Of a stretch of 64,000 bases of DNA, positions 3,001 to 45,442 are shown in pieces. Position 1 is the stretch's first letter. Every line of letters starts with the position of its first letter. The notes beneath the pieces were generated by a model, which saw nothing but the letters and a program-made list of their open reading frames with translations, was not told where the DNA came from and made no database searches. The stretch comes from a virus. Position numbers and translations under genes: made by a program. Location of the stretch: the IMG/VR virus record IMGVR_UViG_3300032116_000032, positions 1-64,000 of that record, one strand, 5' to 3'.

Positions 3001-4332
3001 TTAATATATAATACTGGAAATGACAATACTGGAGTGGGTTACAATACTCAAAATAATGGAGGAACTGCATATGCAAATAGTTCCTTAGGAAGTAAAACAT
3101 TAGAGTCCAACATAGCAGGTTTTCATAATGTTGCTATGGGATATAGAGCATTAGCAAAAAATTTGACTGGTTTTAAAAATACTGGTTTAGGTTCTCGTTC
3201 AATAGAAAATAATACTTATGGTCATAATAATATTGGAATTGGTTATCAATCTCTATATAACAATAACACAGGATATCAAAACATTGCAATAGGTACTTGT
3301 AGTTTACTAAATAATACATACGGTCAATTTAATATTGCTCAAGGATATAGAGCCATGTATAATAACACGTATGGATGTTTTAACGTTGCAATTGGTAGAT
3401 GTGTACTTGAAAATAATACAACCGCAAATGAAAACATTGCTATCGGTAGAAAACCTTTATTCTCAAACACTACAGGTACTCAAAACATCGCTTTAGGTAG
3501 AAACGCACTTATCTGTAACTCAACAGGAAATTACAACATTGCAATGGGTAGAACTGCACTATATGAAAATACAACTGGTGTAGGAAACGTTTCAATTGGT
3601 ATTCGAACAATGGCATATAACAAATCAGGATCTTGTAATGTTGTTTTAGGTTATAGAGCAAATTATAATGGTTATCAGTCGTGTTTTAATGTGTTTATAG
3701 GTACTAAAGCAGGTTGTAATCATTCTTGTTATTGTACTAATGCTAATGTTGCAATAGGATTTCAAGCTTTATTCTCAAGTGTTGCAACTTCAGAAAACGT
3801 TGCTATTGGTACTGAAACATTATATGGTAATACTTCGGGTGGTGTAAACGTTGCAATAGGGGAAAGATCTCAAAGAAATTTAACTACAGGTCAAAGAAAC
3901 GTAAGTGTTGGTTCGCGAGCCATGTATTATGCAACCACAACTAGATATAGTATTGGTGTAGGTGCTTGGGCGGGGTCTAAATTAACTACAGGTTATGATA
4001 ATATTGCAATCGGTAGATGTGCATCTTATAATCAACCAACAACATCTAAGAATAATATTGCCATAGGTAGAGAAGCAAACTGTGCAACAACTTATCAAGG
4101 TGATAATAATATATTTTTGGGTTACAGAACTGGTATGCCGACTGGTAACTACACCGCTTCAGTTGCGATAGGTGGTTATACAGACATACAAGCTAGTAAT
4201 TATATACACTTTGGTTCTGCAGTAGGAGGATTCAATTTGGGGGTTGTTAGTTCAGGTATTGGATGTACGGTTAGTGATATTTGGCCTGTTTATATCAATG
4301 GAGTGTTGAGAAAAATAATGTTATCTTGTTAA
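1..4332 (+). CDS. Giant collagen-like and strand-loop-strand tail fibre/adhesin, 5' end outside the window
   Basis: One open frame runs unbroken from base 1 to the TAA at 4330-4332, giving 1443 residues with the true start upstream of the window. The ATG at 8 is in another frame and the TTG at 1159 is internal. Residues 1-347 are Gly-X-Y triplets, almost all GTN, GTS or GSS, with Thr in X and no proline, so collagen-like but proline-free. A short unique stretch (about 348-390) follows. From about residue 398 to 1410 come roughly forty 24-residue repeats of the form NIAIGxxSLxxNTTGxxN, resembling the strand-loop-strand or YadA-head-like repeats of adhesins and phage fibres. No S74 chaperone domain is seen at the C-terminus. 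It is probably a trimeric receptor-binding or long fibre protein. The sulfotransferase gene follows 46 bases later. The fibre role is inferred from architecture. Confidence 0.85.
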   Translation, partial: GTNGSSGTNGTSGTNGTSGTNGTSGTNGTSGTNGTNGTSGTNGTSGTNGTNGSSGTNGTSGTNGTSGTNGTNGTNGSSGTNGTNGTSGTNGTSGTNGSSGTNGTSGTNGTNGSSGTNGTSGTNGTNGSSGTNGTSGTNGTNGSSGTNGTSGTNGTNGSSGTNGTSGTNGTSGTNGTNGSSGTNGTSGTNGTNGSSGTNGTSGTNGTNGTSGTNGTSGTNGTSGTNGTNGSSGTNGTSGTNGTSGTNGTNGSSGTNGTSGTNGTNGSSGTNGTNGSSGTNGTSGTNGTSGTNGTNGSSGTNGTSGTNGTNGSSGTNGTNGSSGTNGTSGTNGTSGTNGTSGTNGTNGTSGVSPTVPGANNEVLTSDGAGGIVAESLLTFDGTITSPYLNINSVKVGRGNNNVATNISIGCTVAFANTATGPLNIAIGGFSLKCNTTGCRNVGIGPNSLYTNTSGNRNIGIGYRSLLLNSNGAENVAIGGQSTLSSNTSGSNNVGIGSYALRYTTTGNYNFAIGSRVLNCNTTGSCNIGIGRLSLYCNTTGCHNTAFGFCSLRSNTTGSQNNAMGQYALRSNTTGSQNNAFGRNALRSNVSGVNNVAIGDGTLFNNTIGSGNLAVGYRSMSSNINGGNNTAIGRYSLQSNTQGTYNNAIGLSSLRNNTLGCHNTAIGRYSLLNNNTGNFNTAIGQYALRNNTSGLHNIAIGCQSLRYNTTGCDNVSFGRDALRFSTTGSNNIGIGRETLYAFGAKYDNVAIGYRSLKCVTTGCCNIAIGRRASYNNTTGNNNVSIGSGVLFQNTTGCQNIGIGISNLDNNTTGYQNISIGASASLANTTGSRNLSIGYRALFSNVGGCYNIAIGHFSLYCSNTLSHEIAIGSEAMRYRAPFNLPGPANIAIGLFALRGCNYTYKQCGYGNIAIGGCSQRYNSTGHYNIGIGSNTLTLNKTGRQNVAIGANALRNTTAYNPSVAVGFLALCTQTTGYNNTAVGTRALQSNSTGIRNTAVGHFALIYNTGNDNTGVGYNTQNNGGTAYANSSLGSKTLESNIAGFHNVAMGYRALAKNLTGFKNTGLGSRSIENNTYGHNNIGIGYQSLYNNNTGYQNIAIGTCSLLNNTYGQFNIAQGYRAMYNNTYGCFNVAIGRCVLENNTTANENIAIGRKPLFSNTTGTQNIALGRNALICNSTGNYNIAMGRTALYENTTGVGNVSIGIRTMAYNKSGSCNVVLGYRANYNGYQSCFNVFIGTKAGCNHSCYCTNANVAIGFQALFSSVATSENVAIGTETLYGNTSGGVNVAIGERSQRNLTTGQRNVSVGSRAMYYATTTRYSIGVGAWAGSKLTTGYDNIAIGRCASYNQPTTSKNNIAIGREANCATTYQGDNNIFLGYRTGMPTGNYTASVAIGGYTDIQASNYIHFGSAVGGFNLGVVSSGIGCTVSDIWPVYINGVLRKIMLSC
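361..495 (+). repeat. Three tandem 45-bp copies inside the collagen-like region
   Basis: Units at 361-405, 406-450 and 451-495 are identical or nearly so (the third has acg for aca near its end). Each encodes 15 residues (five triplets). This near identity against a diverged background indicates recent tandem duplication. Confidence 0.85.
472..578 (+). repeat. 107-bp exact direct repeat, copy 1
   Basis: By eye this block is identical to 688-794, 216 bases (72 residues) downstream. It lies in the collagen-like coding region and points to a recent in-frame internal duplication. Confidence 0.85.
688..794 (+). repeat. 107-bp exact direct repeat, copy 2
   Basis: Second copy of the block at 472-578. 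The copies first differ at 579 (c) against 795 (a). The offset of 216 bases is a multiple of nine, so the triplet phase is preserved. Confidence 0.85.
1195..4240 (+). repeat. About forty 72-bp repeats coding for 24-residue strand-loop-strand units
   Basis: The core of each unit reads AAT-AT-GCN-ATT-GGT followed by a variable part, then AAY-ACN-ACN-GGN. Units are about 72 bases, with a few longer insertions (for example near 2600-2720, 3030-3100 and 3700-3760). DNA similarity between units is low, so they are old repeats kept at the protein level. Confidence 0.85.
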
Positions 4333-32572: not shown

Positions 32573-35500
32573 ATGGCAACAAACAGTAAAGTTTTCGTTT
32601 CACCTGGTGTTTATACTTCTGAAGTAGATTTGAGCTTTGTTGCTCAAAGCGTCGGGGTAACAACATTAGGTATCGTAGGTGAAACTTTGATAGGTCCAGC
32701 TTTTGAACCGATTTTTATTACAAATTTTGATGAATTCCAAACAGTATTTGGAGGTACTTCACCAGAAAAATTTGTTAATACCCAAATTCCAAAGTATGAA
32801 GCGGCTTACATTGCAAAAGCATATCTACAACAATCCAATCAATTATTCGTAACAAGAATCTTAGGATTATCAGGTTACGATGCAGGACCATCTTGGTCAA
32901 TAACTACGGTTGCTAACGTAGATCCATCAACAATTGGTGTTTGGTGTCTAAGTTCAGTAACTAATTCGGCAACTTGTGTTACAACATGTGTAGTTCCAAA
33001 AGAACTCACATTTACAGTTCCGTTTACTGCTTGTACTAATTCAACAACAACAATAGGTTTCCAAGGAAGCTTCCCTTCAATTATTCAAGACATAATTACA
33101 GAACAATATGAAGAGTTTAACGGAGATACTTCTACATTAGAAACTCAAATTAATAATTTAATTTTTGATGTTATCACAAGTAACAATCCTTATCTTGCGG
33201 AAGATGAACAAATTGCTTACTTTGGTTCTATTGCTACTGACGACTATAACACATTAAATGGTGCTGGTTGGACAGCGGGAACTAATGTATTTAATGTTCC
33301 ATCTGTATCGTTTGATGCCACTGATTTAACTTCTCCTTTGAATGATTCTTGGTACTATGCGTTATTTACAAATACAGGTAATACAAATTACTCAGGATAT
33401 TCATTCTCTACTTTGGTGTCAGGTTTAACGGCTTATTATCCAAACCCAACTCCTACACCACAAGCATCATCATCACCAACACCTACACCATCGGCAGCTA
33501 ATCCTTGTATTACACCGTCACCTTTTGTGTCACCTACACCTACTCCTACACCTGTTAATATTGATTGTTATTCAGGAACTATTGTTGGTAAAATTTATTA
33601 CTACACAGGGACATCATATGTTGATTACGATAATGTAGTTGTTGCAACTTTAAGATCAAGAGGTATTGCAACTTATACAAACTCAACTAACCCAGCATAC
33701 TCAGTAACGGCAACAACAGATGCTAGTTTAGATATGACAGGAAAATATGCTGGAGTTCTTAAAAACCCATACTTGACATTTGCGGTTAATTGTACTGATA
33801 AATTTGGTCAAAACTTTACGTTTGAAACTTCTTTAACTCAAAATGATCCTGAGTATATTAGTAAAGTGTTTGGGATTGCAAACTTCCAAAAACCAAGAAT
33901 TGAAGTTCCATTATTTAATGAGGAAGTATTCCAATCTTGGTTAAACTACTCTTGGAAAAAAGGATACGTTAGAGGTTTAAATCCAAACTTTATTGAATTA
34001 GACTCTGCTCAAAGTGGTGACCCTAACTCAATTGGATGGTATTTGGACAGATATCAAACGCCTAATTCTCCTTGGGTTGTATCAGAATTAAGAGGTAATA
34101 AAGTTTATGACCTATTCAGGTTCTACACAATTTCTGATGGTGATGCCGCTAACACGTTAATTAAAGTTTCACTTATCAATCAAACTTATAACAACTTAAC
34201 GTTTGATGTATTGATTCGTGACTATTTTGATACTGATGCAAACCCTGTAGTTCTTGAGAAATTTACAAACTGTACAATGGATCCAGGACAAAACAACTTT
34301 ATTGCAAATAAAATTGGTACATTGGATGGAGAATACGCACTGAATTCTAAATACGTAATGGTTGAAATGAACGAGGATGCCCCAATTGACGCACTTCCTT
34401 GTGGATTCAACGGATTTAACTTCAGAAATTATGCAGGAGCTCAATCACCATTCCCAATTATTAAAGGTAAATATGATTTCCCTGGCGAAGTAATTTATAA
34501 CCCACCATTTGGTTTGTCTTCAGGTAATGATGATGCGTTGGTAAGTCCGGGAGATAATGTTAGAAGAACATACTTAGGTATATCTAACAATTTAGGATGG
34601 GATGCCGCTTACTTCGAATACGTTGGTAAGAGAAATCCTAATAATACTTGTGATATTGATGGTTTACCATTCAACTACAGATCTGCAGGTTTCCACATGG
34701 ACGTAAATGCAAGTGGTTTAACAATCGGGCCTGAGTTCTCGACGAGTGGTGACCCAAGATTTATCTGTGGTAACTCACCATTCATCACTGAACCTGAACT
34801 TCCAACAAACGCATACTATAGATTGTTCGCACGTAAATTCACATTCTTAGTACAAGGTGGATTTGACGGATGGGATATCTACAGAGAATGGAGAACTAAC
34901 GAAGATAGATTCCAAATCGGTAGAACAGGATTCCTATTCGGAGCTTGTCCATCTACAAGATACCCACAAGCAACAGGTTGGGGAGCGTTTAAAGAAATTT
35001 CTTTAGGTGACGGAACTCAGAATTGGGCAAATACCGACTACTATGCATACTTGTTAGGTCAACAAACATTTGCAAACCCTGAGGCGGTTAACATTAACGT
35101 GTTTGTAACACCGGGTATTGATTATGTAAATAACAGTAACCTTGTAGAAGATGCGGTTAATATGATTGAATTCAACAGAGCGGACTCATTATACATTTGT
35201 ACAACTCCTGACGTTGATATGTATGTTGCAACTACAACAGGGATTGATGTATTTATCTACCCAACAGAAGCAGTTGACAACTTAGAGAATACAGGAATTG
35301 ACTCTAACTACACGGCTACTTACTATCCGTGGGTATTGACAAGAGATAGTGTAAATAACACTCAAATCTATATCCCACCAACAGCTGAAGTAACAAGAAA
35401 CTTAGCGTTGACAGATAACATCGCGTTCCCTTGGTTCGCTGCGGCGGGTTACACTCGTGGTATTGTTAACTGTATTAAAGCTCGTAAGAAGTTAACTCAA

Positions 35501-35923
35501 GAAGATAGAGACATCCTTTACGTAGGTAGACTTAACCCAATCGCAACCTTCTCTGATGTCGGTACCGTAATTTGGGGTAACAAAACTCTACAAGTAAGAG
35601 AATCGGCTCTTGACAGAATCAACGTTAGAAGATTGTTGTTACAAGCTCGTAAATTGATTTCAGCAGTTTCTGTAAGACTATTGTTTGAACAAAACGACTC
35701 ACAAGTAAGACAAGACTTCTTAAATGCTGTTAACCCAATCTTAGATGCAATCAGAAGAGATCGTGGTTTATATGACTTCCGAGTTACAGTTTCTTCAGAT
35801 CCTGAGGATTTAGATAGAAACCAAATGACAGGTAAGATTTATATCAAACCAACAAGATCACTTGAATTTATCGACATTACATTCTATATCACTCCAACAG
35901 GAGCATCGTTTGAGAATATATAA
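32573..35923 (+). CDS. 18: Contractile tail sheath protein (T4 gp18-like) with an exposed Pro/Thr insertion
   Basis: A 1116-residue sheath, against 659 in T4. The N-terminus FVSPGVYTSEVDLSFVAQSV is the standard sheath start (P-G-V-Y-x-x-E). The C-terminal third (TAEVTRNLALTDNIAFPWFA, then AARKLISA-like segment LLLQARKLISAVSVRLLFEQ and TGKIYIKPTRSLEFIDITFY) is the conserved core and assembly arm. The extra length is in the middle: a large insertion that includes a linker of PTPTP and SPTPTP units with a Cys pair (about residues 290-330). The core folds would remain continuous around it, so the insertion should lie on the outside of the tail. A TATTTATA box precedes it and an intrinsic terminator follows. 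The late codons are well adapted, consistent with high expression. Confidence 0.9.
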   Translation: MATNSKVFVSPGVYTSEVDLSFVAQSVGVTTLGIVGETLIGPAFEPIFITNFDEFQTVFGGTSPEKFVNTQIPKYEAAYIAKAYLQQSNQLFVTRILGLSGYDAGPSWSITTVANVDPSTIGVWCLSSVTNSATCVTTCVVPKELTFTVPFTACTNSTTTIGFQGSFPSIIQDIITEQYEEFNGDTSTLETQINNLIFDVITSNNPYLAEDEQIAYFGSIATDDYNTLNGAGWTAGTNVFNVPSVSFDATDLTSPLNDSWYYALFTNTGNTNYSGYSFSTLVSGLTAYYPNPTPTPQASSSPTPTPSAANPCITPSPFVSPTPTPTPVNIDCYSGTIVGKIYYYTGTSYVDYDNVVVATLRSRGIATYTNSTNPAYSVTATTDASLDMTGKYAGVLKNPYLTFAVNCTDKFGQNFTFETSLTQNDPEYISKVFGIANFQKPRIEVPLFNEEVFQSWLNYSWKKGYVRGLNPNFIELDSAQSGDPNSIGWYLDRYQTPNSPWVVSELRGNKVYDLFRFYTISDGDAANTLIKVSLINQTYNNLTFDVLIRDYFDTDANPVVLEKFTNCTMDPGQNNFIANKIGTLDGEYALNSKYVMVEMNEDAPIDALPCGFNGFNFRNYAGAQSPFPIIKGKYDFPGEVIYNPPFGLSSGNDDALVSPGDNVRRTYLGISNNLGWDAAYFEYVGKRNPNNTCDIDGLPFNYRSAGFHMDVNASGLTIGPEFSTSGDPRFICGNSPFITEPELPTNAYYRLFARKFTFLVQGGFDGWDIYREWRTNEDRFQIGRTGFLFGACPSTRYPQATGWGAFKEISLGDGTQNWANTDYYAYLLGQQTFANPEAVNINVFVTPGIDYVNNSNLVEDAVNMIEFNRADSLYICTTPDVDMYVATTTGIDVFIYPTEAVDNLENTGIDSNYTATYYPWVLTRDSVNNTQIYIPPTAEVTRNLALTDNIAFPWFAAAGYTRGIVNCIKARKKLTQEDRDILYVGRLNPIATFSDVGTVIWGNKTLQVRESALDRINVRRLLLQARKLISAVSVRLLFEQNDSQVRQDFLNAVNPILDAIRRDRGLYDFRVTVSSDPEDLDRNQMTGKIYIKPTRSLEFIDITFYITPTGASFENI

Positions 35924-35990: not shown

Positions 35991-36821
35991 ATGAATTACA
36001 AAAAATTTGTTAAAGAAATTTTATCTGAAATCATTCACGATCAGATGAAACCCACAATGAAGTATTATGCTTTTGACTGGGATGATAACCTTATGTATAT
36101 GCCAACAAAAATTTATCTTGTAGATGATAAAGGTAAAACTGTTGGTATGTCTACGGAAGATTTTGCGGAGTATAGAACTGATATTGGTAAAGAACCGTTC
36201 AAATATGAGGGTCACACTATTGTAGATTTTGATAAGGATGCCTTCAGAGACTTTAAAGTACCAGGTGACAAGGCTTTCATTAGTGATGCTATGAAAGCAG
36301 AAACAGGTCCTGCATGGAGTGACTTTGTTGAGGCGGTTAATAATGGGTCTATTTTTGCAATCATCACAGCAAGAGGACACACCCCTTCGGTTCTTAAAAA
36401 TGCGATTTATAATCTAATTAAGAAAAACAAACACGGATTAAGTGAAAAAGAACTTGTTAAAAATCTTAAAAAATATAGAGATTTGGCAGATGAAGAAGAA
36501 TTGTCGGATGATGAATTGGTAAGAGTATATTTAGATATGAACAAATATCATCCTGTAAGTTTCGGTGAAGGTTCTGCTGCGAATCCTGAAGAACTTAAAG
36601 TAAAAGCAATGAGTGAGTTTATGAGATACGTTCAAGAACTTTCAAGGAAACTACAAGAAAAAGCTTTTATGAAAAATAAAATAAGTAATTATTTTGTACC
36701 TTATATTGGGTTTTCAGATGATGATTTAAGAAACGTTCAAGCAATGAAGAAACATTTTGATGATGAATCTGGATTAGATATTTATCATACAGGAGGAGGT
36801 AAAAAAACTAAATTTGAATAA
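35991..36821 (+). CDS. HAD-superfamily phosphatase-like protein
   Basis: A 276-residue protein. Motif I is YAFDWDDNLMYMP (about 26-38), with the D-x-D of HAD nucleophile and acid; the second position is Trp. FAIITARGHTP (about 123-133) supplies the motif II Thr. YIGFSDDDLRN (about 240-250) supplies the motif IV acidic pair. A helical cap of about 100 residues with many Lys and Glu sits between motifs II and IV. The start MNYKKFVKEILSEIIHDQM looks like an appended helix. Its place between sheath and tube genes and its box suggest late expression. The substrate is unknown; nucleotide or polynucleotide phosphatase activity is possible. Confidence 0.75.
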   Translation: MNYKKFVKEILSEIIHDQMKPTMKYYAFDWDDNLMYMPTKIYLVDDKGKTVGMSTEDFAEYRTDIGKEPFKYEGHTIVDFDKDAFRDFKVPGDKAFISDAMKAETGPAWSDFVEAVNNGSIFAIITARGHTPSVLKNAIYNLIKKNKHGLSEKELVKNLKKYRDLADEEELSDDELVRVYLDMNKYHPVSFGEGSAANPEELKVKAMSEFMRYVQELSRKLQEKAFMKNKISNYFVPYIGFSDDDLRNVQAMKKHFDDESGLDIYHTGGGKKTKFE

Positions 36822-36929: not shown

Positions 36930-37418
36930 ATGGCTGATTTATTAATGAAAATGCCGATCCCTTACGAACCGAAAAGGGAGAACCGATGGATCTTAAGATT
37001 CCCTTCATCACTTGGAATTAACGAGTGGTATGTGGAAAGTGCGTCAAGACCAAAACTTACGATCAACTCAAAAGAGATCGAATTTTTAAATACTTCAACG
37101 TTTGTTGCTGGTAGATTTAAATGGGATGCAATTTCAGTTAAATTCCGTGACCCTATTGGACCTTCAGCATCACAAGCTATTATGGAGTGGATTCGTTTAT
37201 GTGCTGAGTCGGTAACGGGACGTATGGGTTATGCAGCAGGTTACAAAAAAAATGTTGACCTTGAAATGTTGGATCCAACAGGGGTAGTTGTTGAAAAATG
37301 GATATTAGAAGGAGCATTTCTTTTAGGGTATGATGGAGGTTCTTTAGCTTACAACTCTGATAATATCGCAGGTATCACATGTCAAATGCAAATGGATAGA
37401 TGTATCTTAGTATACTAA
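36930..37418 (+). CDS. 19: Tail tube protein (T4 gp19-like)
   Basis: A 162-residue protein, the same size as T4 gp19 (163). The motifs are PYEPKRENRWILRFPSSLGI near the start, FKWDAISVKFRDPIGPSASQ, a helix ending AIMEWIRLCAE, and VDLEMLDPTGVVVEKWILEG. These are standard for gp19-like tube subunits of contractile tails. It polymerises as hexamers inside the sheath. It has a TATTTATA box upstream and its own strong terminator downstream, giving a short single-gene unit suited to very high expression. Confidence 0.92.
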   Translation: MADLLMKMPIPYEPKRENRWILRFPSSLGINEWYVESASRPKLTINSKEIEFLNTSTFVAGRFKWDAISVKFRDPIGPSASQAIMEWIRLCAESVTGRMGYAAGYKKNVDLEMLDPTGVVVEKWILEGAFLLGYDGGSLAYNSDNIAGITCQMQMDRCILVY

Positions 37419-37500: not shown

Positions 37501-38271
37501 ATGGAACAAAATGAATATACAGTAGGTCACGGTAATTTGAATTTACCTCATGACGTTATAACTCTACCAACACAGGGGATTTTTTATAAATCAAAAAAGA
37601 AATCAGTTAAAGTGGGTTATTTGACTGCGGTTGATGAAAACATACTTTCAGATTACGATGGAACAAGAAATGTTACTGAGTCAATTATTCTACCATTGTT
37701 AAGGAACAAAGTATATGAAAGAGAAATCAGACCTGAAGAACTTTTAGATGGAGATGTTGAAGCAATCTTGTTGTTCTTAAGAAACACAGCTTTTGGACCT
37801 GAATACAAAGTGACAGTCACAGATCCCGTAACCGAACAAAAATTTACTTCAACAATTAAGTTAGATGAACTTAATTTCAAAAAGACAGAGGTAGAACCTG
37901 ATGAAAACGGACTTTTCAATGTGACATTACCTATGTCAAAAAACAAAGTAACTTTAAAATTATTATCAATATATGATACGTTAGAAATTAACGCAATTTT
38001 AAAATCGTATCCTTCTGACAGAACTGCACCGACAATCACAACTAAGTTGAACAAGCACATTGTAAGTTTAAATGGTGATACGGACAGAATTAAAATTTCA
38101 ACATTTGTTGAAAGTATGCCAATTGCTGATTCTAAATTTATTAGAAGATTTCTAGTTGATAACGAACCAAGATTAGATTTAAGAAAAGAAGTAATAGCCC
38201 CGTCAGGAGAAAGAGTAATGGTCAACATTGCTTTTGGGGTGGAGTTTTTTCGGCCTTTCTTCGCAATATAA
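37501..38271 (+). CDS. Baseplate hub assembly protein, T4 gp26-like
   Basis: A 256-residue protein. DVITLPTQGIFYKSKKKSVK (L-P-T-x-G-x-F-Y), YLTAVDENILSD, LLDGDVEAILLFLRNTAFGP and the closing VNIAFGVEFFRPFFAI follow the T4 baseplate protein gp26 family (PF12322). In T4 it takes part in hub assembly; in other phages this position holds tail assembly chaperones. It is followed directly by an open frame in the +1 phase and then by the tape measure gene. No TATTTATA box precedes it; the leader is TATATAAT-like. It is cytoplasmic, without membrane segments. Confidence 0.75.
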   Translation: MEQNEYTVGHGNLNLPHDVITLPTQGIFYKSKKKSVKVGYLTAVDENILSDYDGTRNVTESIILPLLRNKVYEREIRPEELLDGDVEAILLFLRNTAFGPEYKVTVTDPVTEQKFTSTIKLDELNFKKTEVEPDENGLFNVTLPMSKNKVTLKLLSIYDTLEINAILKSYPSDRTAPTITTKLNKHIVSLNGDTDRIKISTFVESMPIADSKFIRRFLVDNEPRLDLRKEVIAPSGERVMVNIAFGVEFFRPFFAI

Positions 38272-38404
38272 GATAACCATATTAGATGAGTTTTATTATT
38301 TCTCTAAAATTTTTAGAACACAATATTCTGAGTTTATGTCTATGCCTACATACATAAGAAAATATTTAATTAACAAATATGTTGAAGAAATTGAAAATAA
38401 ATAA
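38219..38404 (+). CDS. Short +1-phase frame after the gp26-like gene: frameshift extension or small separate gene
   Basis: The frame is open from 38219 to the TAA at 38402-38404, overlapping the last 53 bases of the gp26-like gene in the +1 phase. After the overlap it encodes ITILDEFYYFSKIFRTQYSE and then FMSMPTYIRKYLINKYVEEI, 45 or so residues. This looks like genuine helical protein and resembles the short chaperone tails after gp26-like proteins (M-P-x-Y-x-R-K-Y-x-I). The first in-frame ATG (38336) would lose half of it, and upstream starts are only TTG (38228, 38234). So either +1 frameshifting joins it to the gp26-like protein, a TTG start is used, or a base is missing in the assembly. 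The G/GT proteins of lambda-like phages have a similar arrangement. Confidence 0.5.
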   Translation, partial: WSTLLLGWSFFGLSSQYKITILDEFYYFSKIFRTQYSEFMSMPTYIRKYLINKYVEEIENK

Positions 38405-38435: not shown

Positions 38436-40280
38436 ATGAGTGATGAAAAGACATATAGTAAAGAAGAAATTGATAAGTTAGTCAAGGAAGCCTACAAAAA
38501 AGGTAGGAAAGAATCTGGTGATGATGATGGAGACGAAAAACCCGATCTACTTAATTTTGAAAAAGATTATGTAAAAAGTTGGCAAATTGGTCTAAAGGAT
38601 ATTAAAGATATTACTCAAGAAACAATGAAAGCAGTTGCCGATTCTTTTGTTGATCAAAGTTTAGGTGAAAATACTTTTATTAAATTATTAGATCAACAAG
38701 CTACTGAACTTTCTGCACAATTTGGTGTTGGAAAGGGTAGGATGGAGGAATTCCGTCAATCTATCGCAGATGTGTCTCCTGCTCTTATAAGAATGGGTAT
38801 AGACCAAGAAACTGCAATCAAGAACATAGGTAAAATGGGTGAGGCATTGGGATCCGCGGCAAGTTTAGGAAGTGAGGCTATAATTGAACTATCCGCCGCT
38901 TCTAAAGCAACTGGACAAGATGTTGGTGTTTTAACTGGAAAATTCAGAGAAGTCGGTATATCGGTTTATGATGTCGGTGAAAAAATGTTAGAAGTTGCAA
39001 ATTCTGCAAGAGCTGCTGGTGTTTCAGTCGGTGCGGTATCTTCAGCTGTTGCCACAAACATAGGAAAATTAAACGTATATAATTTTGAAGGTGGTATTAA
39101 CGGTCTAACAAAAATGTCTATACAGGCATCTAGACTTGGTGTTGATATGGGTAAAGTATTCAAAATTGCCGATGATTTATTCTCACCTGAAAAAGCGATT
39201 GAGTTATCAGCATCATTACAAAGATTAGGTGTTACATCAAGTGGGTTGTTAGATCCATTAAGAGCGATGGACATGGCTCAAAACGATCCTGAAGCCTTAC
39301 AAAAAGAAATAGTCAATATGTCAAAAGAATTTACCAAGTTCAATGAACAAACAGGTAAATTTGAAATTATGCCAGGGTCAAAACGAAGATTAAGAGAGGT
39401 TGCCGAAGCTATGGGTATGACTGCTGAAGAGTTAGCAGGTATGTCAATAAAAGCTTCTGAGTTCGACAAAAAAATGTCACAAATCAAATTACCAAGTTTT
39501 GCTGAGGGTAATGAAGAAACTAAAGAACTCATTGCTAGTATGGCACAGATGAAGGATGGTGTTGCCACGGTTAATGTAAAAGATGAAAAAACAGGTGAAG
39601 TATTATTAAAACAAGTTGATCAATTAACACCCGAGGATATTGAAAAACTAAAAGAGTCTCAAACAACTCAGGCTCAAACCGTTGAAGAGTTAGCTTATGA
39701 TCAATTAACAGAGTTACAACAGATTAATTATAGTATATCGGGAACAAAGGCTGCAGTTGGGTTTGGGAAAGCTACTTCAGAACCAATCGAAAAACTCTTC
39801 ACAACTATGATGGGTATCAATAAAGATGTTGCCGTGGGCATGAATAGAGGTGTAACGACAAAATCTATTAGAGAACCATTAACACAACTAACCCAACCAA
39901 TTGAAGATGCAATAACCTCATTATTGAAAGAAGATAAAGAAGGTGCGAATTTAGCATTAACTAATTTTTTAACAAACGCCGCTAAAATAGAAGAAGAATC
40001 AAAAGTTAAAATTCAAGCTTCATTTGATGCAACTTTAAAAAGTATTCAGGATACATTTAATAAAGCGTATAATCCACAAAAACCTGCAGAGGGACAAGTA
40101 ATAACCGTTAATTGGAATATTTCAGGTGATCCTAATATTACTAAAAACGTTGATCAAGAAACCGTCAATAAAATGATGATCAAAGGATCGGACACTCCTG
40201 AGGTTAAAGTCAATTTAAATAGTAATTTAAATTCTAAAAACGCACCATCAGCTATGACAGGAGGAAAAAATCAACCTTAA
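38436..40280 (+). CDS. Tape measure/hub protein (T4 gp29-like)
   Basis: A 614-residue, mostly helical protein, close in size to T4 gp29 (590). An acidic-basic N-terminus (KEEIDKLVKEAYKKGRKESG) leads to long amphipathic helices. These include AVADSFVDQSLGENTFIKLL, repeated Ala/Gly-rich segments (EALGSAASLGSEAIIELSAA) and AGVSVGAVSSAVATNIGKLN, typical of tape measure proteins. A beta segment (GQVITVNWNISGDPNITKNV) lies near the C-terminus. No lytic domain is seen. It follows the gp26-like gene as tape measure genes follow their chaperones. The tape role is inferred from composition, length and position. Confidence 0.7.
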   Translation: MSDEKTYSKEEIDKLVKEAYKKGRKESGDDDGDEKPDLLNFEKDYVKSWQIGLKDIKDITQETMKAVADSFVDQSLGENTFIKLLDQQATELSAQFGVGKGRMEEFRQSIADVSPALIRMGIDQETAIKNIGKMGEALGSAASLGSEAIIELSAASKATGQDVGVLTGKFREVGISVYDVGEKMLEVANSARAAGVSVGAVSSAVATNIGKLNVYNFEGGINGLTKMSIQASRLGVDMGKVFKIADDLFSPEKAIELSASLQRLGVTSSGLLDPLRAMDMAQNDPEALQKEIVNMSKEFTKFNEQTGKFEIMPGSKRRLREVAEAMGMTAEELAGMSIKASEFDKKMSQIKLPSFAEGNEETKELIASMAQMKDGVATVNVKDEKTGEVLLKQVDQLTPEDIEKLKESQTTQAQTVEELAYDQLTELQQINYSISGTKAAVGFGKATSEPIEKLFTTMMGINKDVAVGMNRGVTTKSIREPLTQLTQPIEDAITSLLKEDKEGANLALTNFLTNAAKIEEESKVKIQASFDATLKSIQDTFNKAYNPQKPAEGQVITVNWNISGDPNITKNVDQETVNKMMIKGSDTPEVKVNLNSNLNSKNAPSAMTGGKNQP

Positions 40281-40327: not shown

Positions 40328-43300
40328 ATGGCTGAGAGTTTTTTATCTTTTGGTAACTCAGAATTGTTTAGAAAACAGTTATTAGTTAGAAATTTACAAC
40401 CCTATGGAGTACCAGGTGCTTATACATCACCTGGTAACCCTGTAAATTATGAAACAAATTTAACAGTTTCTAATGTGGTAGATTCGCCTAATAATTACGT
40501 TTCAACAAATATATTTGCTTCTGACCTTTATCCTTTAAATGAATATGGACCTGAAGGTGGTTTTGGAAACCCAATTGGTGTTAATCTTACACCGGTTTTA
40601 GAACCAAATCAAGGACCATACTACCCAATTAATGGAGAACAAAGTCAAGGATTGGTACTTGTAAATGAATTCTTTATAGAATCCGCATACGTAACTAACA
40701 GATGGGGACCATCAGGAGGATATAAAGATTTAGTCATTATAACAGATGTTCAACAATCAGGACTTATATACCAACCATATTGGTACCCTGGTTATTATAG
40801 TTATTCTAGTTACTCAACATACGGAATAGTTTTTTCGGACGATCCGTTGGGGTCAAATGGACCTTTATCTGCCGATAGTTATTTGGCAAAAATTGGTGCA
40901 GAACAATTAAAGTTTGCCTTCAATGAAAGAATTGCACAAGAATTAGAACAGGCAACAATTGGTGCTATTAACTTAGATACAATATCTGATCCTTTCTCTG
41001 CGAGTTTATTAGCAACAGGACAACAACCATTCTTTATACGAAATTGGAAAATTACAGTTCCTGAAAATCCCGCTTTGGCTGCGGTATCTTTAGCTAATAG
41101 ATTAACAGGTACTTATTTCCCTGTTTCATTTATCCCTGGTGATTATTTTGATGATGATAATCCTATTAATGGACCACAAAATGCTGCGGCCTTAGGTGTT
41201 GCGAATAATCTAACAGGTGGTTTGTTAGCACCGATATTGAATAAGTATAGAAGTCCATCTGAAGTATTTGTTGCAAATACAGGTAATGGTCAAAGATCTG
41301 CATTATTTTCGGCATTAGATTATAACCTTTATAGACCGGCCTATAATAGAGGTATAGTTGGTGGTCTGATTGCGGGTGCATCGGCAGCAGTAAATAGATT
41401 ATTTGACCAAGACAAAGCTCAATCTTCGGGATATTATGTTGGTAGTGAAAATGCTGAACCATCACAAATTGATGGACCCCCTAATCAATTACCTGTTAAT
41501 CAATTTGGAGTTCAACAACAAACTATAGTTTATGGACCACAAGAGTTAGGTATTTTATATGAAGGTAATGAAAACCAACTTAATTTCGGATTGAAAGGTA
41601 AATCTTATACTGATGGAGGTGGAACATCAGGTCAAATGGTTTGGACTTCACCAAAGTATAAAGGGGATGCTGGTTTCCATGCGACTGTGGGTGGTGGTGC
41701 AGGAAGTTTAGATGACGAGTTTAATCAGATTTCAGGTGATTATTTAAGATATCAATCAATAGATGTTCCTTTCAGACCTGGTTCTATTCTTTATGAGACA
41801 CAAAGATTAGTAGATTCGGCGGATCAAGTACAAGGACAAGCAAGGTTAAAACATGTTGGGACGGCAATCAATCAAGTCTCAAAAGTTTTTAATGATGGTT
41901 ATAAAGAATTAACGAAAGGTTCTAGAGTTTTATCTTATGTTAATCAAGCGGACGGAACTCAAGCAGGATTAGAATATTGTAGAGTGTTCCAAAAAGATAC
42001 TCCATATTACACATATGCTGACTTACAAAAAGTTGACGGTATAACAACTTCAGGTAGAAGATTCGACTATTCAATATTTGATAATACATACAACTTAAAC
42101 ATTGCACCTTTAAGAAATCCGGGCTCAACAAATATTGTTGACGGTAAAGTTAAAAAGTATATGTTCTCAATTGAAAACTTGGCTTGGAGAACTTCAGACA
42201 GACCGGGTTACACTTACGATGATTTACCTGTTTGTGAGAAAGGACCAAATGGAGGAAGAATTATGTGGTTCCCACCATATAATGTTAAGTTTAGTGATGA
42301 CACCAAACCCGATTTTAATGCAACAAGCTTCATAGGCAGACCCGAACCAATTTACACTTATAAGAATACATCCAGAAGTGGACAGATCAGTTGGACCATC
42401 ATTGTGGATAATCCATCCATGATGAACACTATTATTGAAAAACAAATGAAAGGTGCATCAAAAGACAGAATTCAAAGTATAATTGATTCATTCTATGCTG
42501 GTTGTACTAAATATGATATATATGAATTAGGTATTAAATTTAATACTATACCAACAAAAGATTTATACACTTATCAACAAATTTTAAACAACCCAAGACT
42601 AACCACTGAAGAACAAGTAGAAGTTTTACAAAGTATACCTACAAATCAAGAAACTACAAATGCTAATGATGCTTCAGGTGCCGATGGTACTGAAGGAACT
42701 ACAGGTACTGGTAATCAACAAGCCCAAAACATCCAATATGTGGATGCTGATTTAAGTAATTACGTTGGGTATGGTTTTTATTTTGAGAATGATGTTCCTG
42801 GAGGACCTAATGGGACAAAACCTGGAGAAAACAAAGAAGGTGGTACTTCTGCTTACAATTACGATTACTATTATAATCAATATATAGGTTTAGAACCAAC
42901 TTATTTGCAACAAGCACCTCAAACTGTTTATGTTGGTACGGACCAATTTACAAAAGAAGGTATCCCAAACTTCTTCTCAACAGTGGTTACAGGAAACTTT
43001 AACATAATTCAAACCGACTTGATTCAAAAACAATTGAATGAAATTTTAGTTGATAAAAAAGGTAAGGTTGAAATAGAACTCGTTGGGTCGGCATCTGCAC
43101 CACAAAAAGTTTCTTACAACAAAAAATTATCAGAAAGAAGAAATGATTCAGTTAAAAAATGGTTTTTAGCGCAAAAACTTAAAGATGGAAAAACTTTACA
43201 AGAATATCAATCTGCTGGATTTTTTAAGATGACATTAAACGCTAATGGAGAACAACTTGTGATCCCAAAAACCAAAGAAGAAGCCGCAGCCACAACAGGA

Positions 43301-45442
43301 GATACAACCGATATTAGTGTAACAAATGCTCAAGGGGGTAATGTTCTAAATGCTAGTGTTAACTGTACTAAAAATATAACGTTAGTTGCGACAGAGAACC
43401 CAACTTCAGGAGATATTCAAGAATCAAGTAAAGCTCAATGGTATAGTATTCCTGCAATGGCTTGTCGTAGAGTTGCGATCCAAAGGATTAAAGCGGAAAT
43501 TCCAAAAGATGAAACTCCGCAACCAAGTCCTGTACCGCCAAAACCGGTACCAACACCTGTCCCGAACATTCTTACAGGTCAGACTCAAAGTATTAAACCT
43601 GAACCTAAAATTACTATTGAACAAAAAATTAAAGAAGGTATTTCTAAAAAAATATTAAGAAATCTTTTTACTGAGTGTGATTATTTCCAAATCATAAAAG
43701 AAAGTGATCCTATGATATACGATTCTATAAAAGATAGAATTAAATATTTTAGTCCTGCTTTCCACTCGATGACACCTGAAGGTTTAAATGCTCGTTTGAC
43801 TTTCTTACAACAATGTATGAGACCTGGTCAAACAATTCCTGTTATAGGTGCCGACGGTAGACCAAAATATAATGACGCATTAAATACTACATTTGGTGCA
43901 CCACCAATTCTGATTTTAAGATTTGGTGACTTTTATCATACCAAAATAGTGCCGACAAATCTTGGTATTAGTTACGACCCACTTCATTTAGATATAAATC
44001 CTGAAGGGATTGGAGTACAACCAATGTTGGCTAACATATCATTGTCTTTTAATATAATTGGAGGTATGGGTCTTAAAGAACCAGTCCAAGAATTACAAAA
44101 CGCACTTTCTTTCAATTATTATGCTAATACAGAAATTTATGATGAAAGAGCAACCGCAACTGAAGATACGAGTAAGATGGATCAATACGTTGTTCAAAAA
44201 ATAACTTCTGCATTCCCAACTGTAAGTTCACAGGAAGCGGCAAACATAGTTAATAACGTACAACCTAAAAAAGGTGGAAGTACTATGGGTGTAATTGCAA
44301 GTGATACCGATATTGACTATACAACTCTATTAACTTCATTACAAGACGGACTACAAGGATATTTTAAAGCCTATTATGATGCGATTAGTAAAATTAATAC
44401 GGATTATAATTTTGGAGTTTTACAAATTGCATTACAAGATAAATCATATACTGAAGGAGAACTTTCAGAATATACAAATGATAAAGTTAAAACCACACTT
44501 TATGGTAAAAGTAATAATTATCAAGAATATGTTGAGAACTTAATCAAAGAAGTTAAAAAAGACATTGAACAAAATGATGACCCAATTCTTTCTTATTTGA
44601 AGGGAGAAAACCAAATGACAAATAAAATTAAAAGAGAATTAGAAGATAAATTACAAGCGTATGCAACACAAAGACAACAACCAATTTTAGATGTTATAAC
44701 AAACAACACATCAAACATAACAAAAGTTGAAACTGATTTAAATTATTTGTTTAGACAATTAGATGTTGTATCTGATAAATTAGATGGTTATTTAGGATCC
44801 AATAACGAACCAATTGGATATGATCTAAGTGGAGATACTTTCTTTGGGCCAGCAACTACAGATGGAACATTAGCTAATTTATATACCAAAAAAGTACCTG
44901 AAACGATAACCAAGTTTGAAAAACTTTTGGAAAGTTATAAAATAATATCGAAAGATGGATTCTTTAAAAAGAGAACATCAACTATTGAAAATGGGAGTGG
45001 TTGTAAATTTGTGGTAAATAATCAAGGATATTTTGGTTTGAATGGTGATTGTCCTTGGAATAGATTTTATATCGCAATGTCCCCTTTATTTACTAAAGAA
45101 CAATCATATACTGAATTTGTAAATGATTTGGTAAGTGGACCTGAAATAAAAAATAACCCAACTATTATCGACTTAGTAAAAAGGGCGTGTAACAATGTAA
45201 AAGAAGATTACATTCCATTCCAAGAAATATGGACAAAAGTTTTTACTGATATAGAAAAATCACAAGATTATGTTACAGTTACAACATTTAAATTACCCGA
45301 CGGACAAGTGAAGGTGTGTAACTATAAAACACCAATAACCGACAACACAAATCAAAAAAACAAAAAATTAAAAGACCTGTACTCAAGTGTTAACTTGAAC
45401 GACAATAAAAAGACCTTCAATGGTAAAGTAACATTCAATTAA
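40328..45442 (+). CDS. Giant baseplate/tube-junction protein with an OmpA-like domain
   Basis: A 1704-residue protein. The first 550 residues are a Tyr/Asn/Pro-rich virion-type region. MFSIENLAWRTSDRPGYTYD and RSGQISWTIIVDNPSMMNTI (about 617-710) match a tail-tube/baseplate-junction pattern. Residues about 892-955 look like an OmpA-type peptidoglycan-binding domain (KVEIELVGSASAPQKVSYNK followed by LSERRNDSVKKWFL), with the Asn and Arg residues typical of that fold. PPILILRFGDFYHTKIVPTN and LANISLSFNIIGGMGLKEPV (about 1200-1255) again resemble CIS tube-initiator domains (T4 gp48/gp54 position). A helical C-terminus follows. It is one base upstream of the gp53-like gene. It probably combines functions held by several T4 baseplate proteins. 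Confidence 0.65.
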   Translation: MAESFLSFGNSELFRKQLLVRNLQPYGVPGAYTSPGNPVNYETNLTVSNVVDSPNNYVSTNIFASDLYPLNEYGPEGGFGNPIGVNLTPVLEPNQGPYYPINGEQSQGLVLVNEFFIESAYVTNRWGPSGGYKDLVIITDVQQSGLIYQPYWYPGYYSYSSYSTYGIVFSDDPLGSNGPLSADSYLAKIGAEQLKFAFNERIAQELEQATIGAINLDTISDPFSASLLATGQQPFFIRNWKITVPENPALAAVSLANRLTGTYFPVSFIPGDYFDDDNPINGPQNAAALGVANNLTGGLLAPILNKYRSPSEVFVANTGNGQRSALFSALDYNLYRPAYNRGIVGGLIAGASAAVNRLFDQDKAQSSGYYVGSENAEPSQIDGPPNQLPVNQFGVQQQTIVYGPQELGILYEGNENQLNFGLKGKSYTDGGGTSGQMVWTSPKYKGDAGFHATVGGGAGSLDDEFNQISGDYLRYQSIDVPFRPGSILYETQRLVDSADQVQGQARLKHVGTAINQVSKVFNDGYKELTKGSRVLSYVNQADGTQAGLEYCRVFQKDTPYYTYADLQKVDGITTSGRRFDYSIFDNTYNLNIAPLRNPGSTNIVDGKVKKYMFSIENLAWRTSDRPGYTYDDLPVCEKGPNGGRIMWFPPYNVKFSDDTKPDFNATSFIGRPEPIYTYKNTSRSGQISWTIIVDNPSMMNTIIEKQMKGASKDRIQSIIDSFYAGCTKYDIYELGIKFNTIPTKDLYTYQQILNNPRLTTEEQVEVLQSIPTNQETTNANDASGADGTEGTTGTGNQQAQNIQYVDADLSNYVGYGFYFENDVPGGPNGTKPGENKEGGTSAYNYDYYYNQYIGLEPTYLQQAPQTVYVGTDQFTKEGIPNFFSTVVTGNFNIIQTDLIQKQLNEILVDKKGKVEIELVGSASAPQKVSYNKKLSERRNDSVKKWFLAQKLKDGKTLQEYQSAGFFKMTLNANGEQLVIPKTKEEAAATTGDTTDISVTNAQGGNVLNASVNCTKNITLVATENPTSGDIQESSKAQWYSIPAMACRRVAIQRIKAEIPKDETPQPSPVPPKPVPTPVPNILTGQTQSIKPEPKITIEQKIKEGISKKILRNLFTECDYFQIIKESDPMIYDSIKDRIKYFSPAFHSMTPEGLNARLTFLQQCMRPGQTIPVIGADGRPKYNDALNTTFGAPPILILRFGDFYHTKIVPTNLGISYDPLHLDINPEGIGVQPMLANISLSFNIIGGMGLKEPVQELQNALSFNYYANTEIYDERATATEDTSKMDQYVVQKITSAFPTVSSQEAANIVNNVQPKKGGSTMGVIASDTDIDYTTLLTSLQDGLQGYFKAYYDAISKINTDYNFGVLQIALQDKSYTEGELSEYTNDKVKTTLYGKSNNYQEYVENLIKEVKKDIEQNDDPILSYLKGENQMTNKIKRELEDKLQAYATQRQQPILDVITNNTSNITKVETDLNYLFRQLDVVSDKLDGYLGSNNEPIGYDLSGDTFFGPATTDGTLANLYTKKVPETITKFEKLLESYKIISKDGFFKKRTSTIENGSGCKFVVNNQGYFGLNGDCPWNRFYIAMSPLFTKEQSYTEFVNDLVSGPEIKNNPTIIDLVKRACNNVKEDYIPFQEIWTKVFTDIEKSQDYVTVTTFKLPDGQVKVCNYKTPITDNTNQKNKKLKDLYSSVNLNDNKKTFNGKVTFN

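Follow-up and report, generated by a model that had tools for sequence, protein, structure and literature searches.

A candidate +1 frameshift joining a T4 gp26-like tail-assembly chaperone to a conserved C-terminal extension

The gp26-like gene of this virus ends in an overlap with a second open frame, and the question raised by the locus is how that frame comes to be translated. The window analyzed here comprises 64,000 nucleotides of a 136 kb metagenomic record, and its relevant features are collected in Table 1. The original prediction, made from the window alone, was that a +1 frameshift joins the gp26-like protein to a short tail ahead of the tape measure gene. The +1 frame was indeed open from position 38219 to a stop at 38402-38404, overlapping the gp26-like ORF by 53 nt as predicted, and it continued for ∼43 codons after the 0-frame stop, close to the ∼45 residues anticipated. 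The lack of a good start codon was likewise confirmed, with no ATG before tail residue 28 (TTG codons exist upstream) and none conserved in relatives. The explanation that best accounts for the data presented below, and that we consider very probably correct, is programmed +1 frameshifting that makes a short and a long tail-assembly chaperone (TAC-N and TAC-NC). It preserves the predicted long form before the tape measure gene and places the slip at TTT_TTT_CGG.

Table 1. Features of the putative chaperone locus and its neighbors in the window
Feature	Coordinates	Strand	Details
Tail tube gene (gp19-like), upstream neighbor	36930..37418	+	phrog_4542 E 1.7e-20; 41% identical to Mel-JY01 tube
Predicted short chaperone TAC-N (gp26-like)	37501..38271	+	256 aa, ATG start; PF12322 and phrog_150 matches
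Conserved 5' RNA element	38198..38239	+	Potential pairing of CCCC (38198-38201) with GGGG (38236-38239); inner stem-loop 38211-38220 / 38226-38235
Purine-rich GGGGTGGAG, possible internal Shine-Dalgarno-like stimulator	38236..38244	+	Nucleotides mostly conserved including wobble positions; putative function
Predicted slip site TTT_TTT_CGG = TTTTTTCGG	38245..38253	+	Codons TTT 38245-47, TTT 38248-50, CGG 38251-53; conserved in 104/104 close sequences
Predicted TAC-C extension	38252..38404	+	50 aa, +1 frame; pN/pS 0.36; aligns to T4 gp51 C-terminus
Probable tape measure gene	38436..40280	+	614 aa; similarity to Mel-JY01 large tail protein E 1.5e-11

Gene context and family membership

The gp26-like gene lies between the tail tube and probable tape measure genes, the position characteristic of a TAC gene, and the same flanks, with the tail tube gene ahead of it and a tape-measure-like gene after it, were found in 91 of 108 loci. 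The probable tape measure product showed weak similarity to the tape measure protein of Flavobacterium phage immuto (E 0.002) and no match in the family libraries searched. In a protein search covering the 136 kb record, the gp26-like protein was present as a single copy, and the two-gene layout of T4 was not found.

The short form matched Pfam PF12322 with an E-value of 4e-7 (30.3 bits, against a cutoff of 24.5) and phrog_150 with an E-value of 6e-12; as judged by these profile matches, it is a member of the family of T4 gp26 and gp51. The 282 positions of phrog_150 are covered from 14 to 235 by T4 gp26 and from 13 to 280 by T4 gp51, and gp51 is therefore a gp26-like protein with a C-terminal extension. 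The 0 frame together with TAC-C codes for a long form of 300 aa. A profile of the frameshifted tails aligned to the C-termini of gp51 proteins with an hhalign score of 22.5, the maximum in 200 column shuffles being 17.3. The coded long form thus appears to carry a gp51-type C-terminal extension, with a modest match to the gp51 tail. The signal for the gp51 C-terminus came from this tail-only profile comparison only: full-length profiles aligned to gp26/gp51 over the central part and not the tail region, and comparison of a single-sequence profile of the fusion with T4 gp51 or gp26 gave no signal.

An AlphaFold model of the 300-aa long form was of weak to modest quality (pLDDT 58), with a helical tail. 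Its matches among viral folds in BFVD were gp26/gp51-type baseplate hub assembly proteins, and a fold search of the PDB with the same model gave no match. Lambda G/T showed no sequence relation to these proteins.

A conserved slip motif followed by an open +1 frame

Relatives were collected in a first scan of viral contigs (80 relatives, at 57-100% amino acid identity) and a second scan with an alignment (80 more). The resulting 108 distinct loci include the window and 103 close relatives, with amino acid identities of 56-100%. As had been suggested originally, the junction was aligned across relatives, and both the motif and the open +1 tail proved to be kept. In-frame TTTTTTCG was present in 104 of 104 close sequences (the window and its 103 relatives), and the codon after TTT_TTT was nearly always CGG, with a few instances of CGC, CGA, or CGT. 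The +1 frame stayed open for 130-151 nt past the 0-frame stop in all complete close sequences except L040, and the -1 frame was usually closed within 50 nt. L040 (IMGVR_UViG_3300044535_001063) has an internal deletion that removes part of the +1 tail so that the frame closes early, through either an assembly collapse or a real truncation. The original prediction had placed a slippery run at 38244-38252; the run is present, with coordinates one base off from those in Table 1.

The probability that a single shuffled tail of the same composition remains open was 0.011, yet the motif is present in all 104 close sequences and the frame is open past the stop in all complete ones but L040, so the open +1 tail is not due to chance. 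A codon alignment of the spliced product gave a pN/pS of 0.36 for the tail beyond the 0-frame stop and 0.35 for the gp26-like body. Synonymous differences fell to 0.15-0.3 of expected only over codons ∼228-254, a depression that ends at the slip site, where synonymous divergence is the lowest of the whole ORF. The pN/pS values and the synonymous depression together show that the tail is coded and that a signal exists at the nucleotide level. Coding capacity and selection are thus seen for a short and a longer form with a common N-terminus, the proteins themselves being predicted.

Only a single copy of TTTTTTCGGCCTTTC is present in the 136 kb record, in-frame TTT CGN occurs once in 37 long ORFs, at the slip site, and CGG is used in the window at 0.53 per 1000 codons. 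The stop context ATATAAG, at which the original prediction had allowed a +1 slip, was rejected as the site of shifting. The 0-frame stop differs in codon and position among close relatives (ATA TAA, TTC TGA, TTC TAG, and TTA TAA are all found), whereas TTTTTTCG is fixed. In 22 loci the +1 frame has a stop no more than 26 nt from the 0-frame stop, and the slip is therefore confined to the ∼20 nt that hold the motif.

In the mechanism that we propose, TAC-N would be the counterpart of T4 gp26. The P-site tRNA-Phe would slip +1 from UUU (38248-50) to UUC (38249-51), with GGC (38252-54) read as the next codon, and translation in the +1 frame would add the TAC-C residues to give TAC-NC, the counterpart of T4 gp51. 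Like lambda gpG/gpGT, the two forms would cover the tape measure protein and bring in the tube subunits. We infer the slippage itself, its rate, and the roles of the CGG codon and the 5' element. What can be read directly from the sequences is a conserved slip motif, a conserved coding +1 frame, a nucleotide-level signal, family membership, and gene order, without a conserved start codon.

The start codons bear on whether the tail is instead a separate small protein, one that is not fused to TAC-N and whose translation begins at a weak codon (an overlap TTG or an ATG further downstream) through re-initiation or coupling. Many close relatives do have +1-frame TTG codons inside the overlap, and public annotation gives a separate ORF in Microcystis phage Mel-JY01, immuto, and Bacillus phage SP-15. 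We nevertheless judge this arrangement improbable, as no start is conserved: the first tail ATG falls at many positions and 17 tails have none at all. ATG, GTG, and TTG are all absent from 37 of 180 loci as far as 15 nt beyond the 0-frame stop, L187 has none anywhere, and the TTG codons of L152 are excluded by a TAG just upstream. Residues between the slip site and the first ATG are also under equal selection (pN/pS 0.37 for the part of the tail before residue 28).

Repetition of the arrangement in ∼180 distinct sequences and in isolates, under purifying selection, leaves a sequencing error or a decaying pseudogene with hardly any probability and makes it the least likely of the alternatives, even though the source is a metagenome assembly and L040 has lost part of its tail. 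The original prediction had itself named a sequencing error, or a separate ATG-started gene in relatives, as the findings that would count against it; the former fails on the ∼180 sequences, and no relative with a conserved tail ATG was found.

Distant relatives and the direction of the shift

A tblastn search of annotated phages identified Mel-JY01 and two huge-phage genomes, and a further search of annotated phages added immuto, Rhodothermus phage RM378, SP-15, and Streptococcus phage GXN1. The +1 frame was open behind the junction in Mel-JY01 and RM378 (both TTT TTT TGG), immuto (TTT CTT TGG), SP-15 (TTT TTT CAC), GXN1 (TTC TTT CGT), and LR756508 (TTT CTA). A third scan yielded 73 distinct distant loci with 40-49% identity to LR756508, all of them +1-compatible with TTT_TGG, TTT_TAC, or CTT_TGG. 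A YTT_Y slip tetranucleotide followed by an open +1 frame is accordingly a feature of 73 distant contigs and of isolates from five hosts (Flavobacterium, Microcystis, Bacillus, Streptococcus, and Rhodothermus). Five distant contigs had a -1 frame that was longer or uncertain, with the +1 frame open too. The only -1 arrangement was that of the huge phage LR756511.1 (L084, locus 3654-3926), where a homologous tail lies in the -1 frame behind T_TTT_TTC; the direction of the shift therefore changes within the gp26-like family.

A scan of genome contigs returned two loci only, both in MAGs: the WOR-3 MAG CP070664.1 (L165) and the MAG contig CALMEO010000055.1 (L166) each have a gp26-like gene in which TTT_TTT_TGG is followed by an open +1 tail. 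These bacterial MAG contigs may be prophages or phage contigs placed in the bins. All or the downstream part of the frameshifted tail is a separate hypothetical protein in the public annotation of Mel-JY01, immuto, and SP-15 (L082 3740-3976, L168 3348-3458, and L170 3312-3431).

Re-pairing of tRNA-Phe (or of tRNA-Leu on CUU) in the +1 frame requires a pyrimidine after the P-site codon, and a pyrimidine was found throughout: TTT or CTT is followed by T or C in the isolates as well as in the 180 loci that were classed. The same tail frame could be reached by a -2 slip, giving a product with one extra Phe, and the T-run of the window permits the -2 re-pairing. That re-pairing fails in relatives with TTC TTT TGG or TTT CTT TGG, whereas re-pairing in +1 is possible throughout, and a -2 slip is consequently very unlikely, more so than either the separate protein above or the slippage of RNA polymerase considered next. 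If RNA polymerase dropped one U in the T-run, two mRNAs and hence two proteins would result, and deletion of one T would give an identical long protein. The run numbers six T here, which is short for transcriptional slippage, and seven in many of the distant relatives. Relatives with TTT CTT TGG or TTC TTT TGG keep the +1 tail with runs of only 3-4 T, and conservation of CGN would be left unexplained. We rate transcriptional slippage as slightly less probable than separate translation of the tail, and +1 slippage on the ribosome remains the preferred reading. The A-site codons TGG and TAC of distant relatives are not obviously rare, and a rare-codon role in the shift may thus be specific to the clade of the window.

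Upstream of the slip site, pairing in the inner stem-loop of the 5' element reached 98% across 21 sequences, and in one lineage both partners of two pairs had changed. Pairing was 82% in 80 sequences compared with 40-55% in slid controls. GCCCC and TTTGGGGT are nearly invariant, which puts the CCCC/GGGG pairing beyond covariation testing. The shift may be stimulated by this 5' structure or by the Shine-Dalgarno-like GGGGTGGAR. A downstream pseudoknot or other structure was rejected for the window, where the folding energy was not unusual (z -0.85 and -1.12), and a search of Rfam gave no meaningful match. It is quite possible, if somewhat short of probable, that a dedicated bacterial +1 signal, consisting of a 5' structure (GCCCC...GGGG and the stem-loop) and GGGGUGGAR upstream of UUU_UUU_CGN, sets the ratio of short to long chaperone, and that the gp26 family switched among +1 shifting, -1 shifting, and gene duplication in evolution while keeping the same two proteins.

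Relation to known systems and neighboring tail genes

Vladimirov, Gautam and Davidson (2022, Virology 566:9) reportedly identified the T4-like chaperones, named genes 26 and 51, and described frameshifting in several T4-like groups. T4 gp26 and gp51 resemble the predicted proteins in their family (phrog_150 / PF12322), in comprising a short form and a long one that is extended C-terminally by ∼45 residues, and in having the tape measure gene nearby; they differ in that T4 uses two separate genes, whereas here one gene and a +1 frameshift would suffice. According to two papers that cite this study, T4-like phages without frameshifting carry separate short and long chaperone genes (PMC10885494, PMC12846349), and one of these credits -1 poly-T signals to other T4-like chaperones (PMC12846349). 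As frameshifting is already reported for T4-like chaperones, a frameshifted chaperone is of a known kind. The original description of the shift as unusual for T4-like phages accordingly holds for its +1 direction and not for frameshifting as such.

G-T frameshifting was described in a 2016 review as widely conserved except in T4 (PMC5009743). Lambda gpG/gpGT (PMC5009743) and SPP1 17.5/17.5* (PMC6316719) likewise have one start and a short and a frameshift-extended chaperone encoded between tube and tape measure genes, but they shift -1 on slippery heptamers whereas the extension here is in +1. The Vandenendeviridae / Pakpunavirus phage Adele (PMC12846349) has a conserved GTTTTT ending its short chaperone gene and a tail ORF wrongly annotated as separate; its shift is also -1. 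The nearest known +1 case among tail chaperones is that of the halovirus HSTV-2, described as "very likely +1" (PMC5009743). For the slip itself the closest parallel is the PA-X site UCC_UUU_CGU, for which mass spectrometry and mutants served to argue that re-pairing goes from UUU to UUC and that a rare CGN codon takes part (PMC3498833). Both sites would have a rare Arg codon, CGN, in the A-site and a tRNA-Phe that slips from UUU to UUC in the P-site. PA-X belongs to a eukaryotic viral system with an unrelated protein and UCC in the E-site, whereas a bacterial ribosome, an E-site UUU, and a conserved 5' element would be involved here. We found no description in the literature, in which the 2022 T4-like study is represented by papers that cite it, of the +1 direction, the YTT_Y rule over ∼180 sequences, or the 5' element in the gp26/gp51 family.

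The locus would represent a broad and ancient +1 counterpart of lambda G/GT in the T4 gp26/gp51 family, spread over huge and uncultured phages as well as isolates from five or more host genera. The locus lends support to the view that gp26-like "baseplate hub" proteins are tape-measure chaperones, and the small ORFs annotated as "hypothetical" between a gp26-like gene and a tape measure gene would be mis-annotated halves of one protein. The ∼180 sequences also supply natural variants of a +1 site, a class with few general rules.

Three other tail-region ORFs of the window deserve mention. The protein at the sheath position (32573-35923) is long (1116 aa) and contains an inserted proline-threonine repeat (SPTPTP). 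A 276-aa ORF that separates the sheath gene from the tube gene (35991-36821) shows a DWDDN...ITARGH pattern that hints at a HAD-type phosphatase. A 1704-aa tail-region protein encoded downstream of the tape measure (40328-45442) has a weak OmpA-like match at residues 905-984, with an E-value of 8e-4 and below the cutoff.
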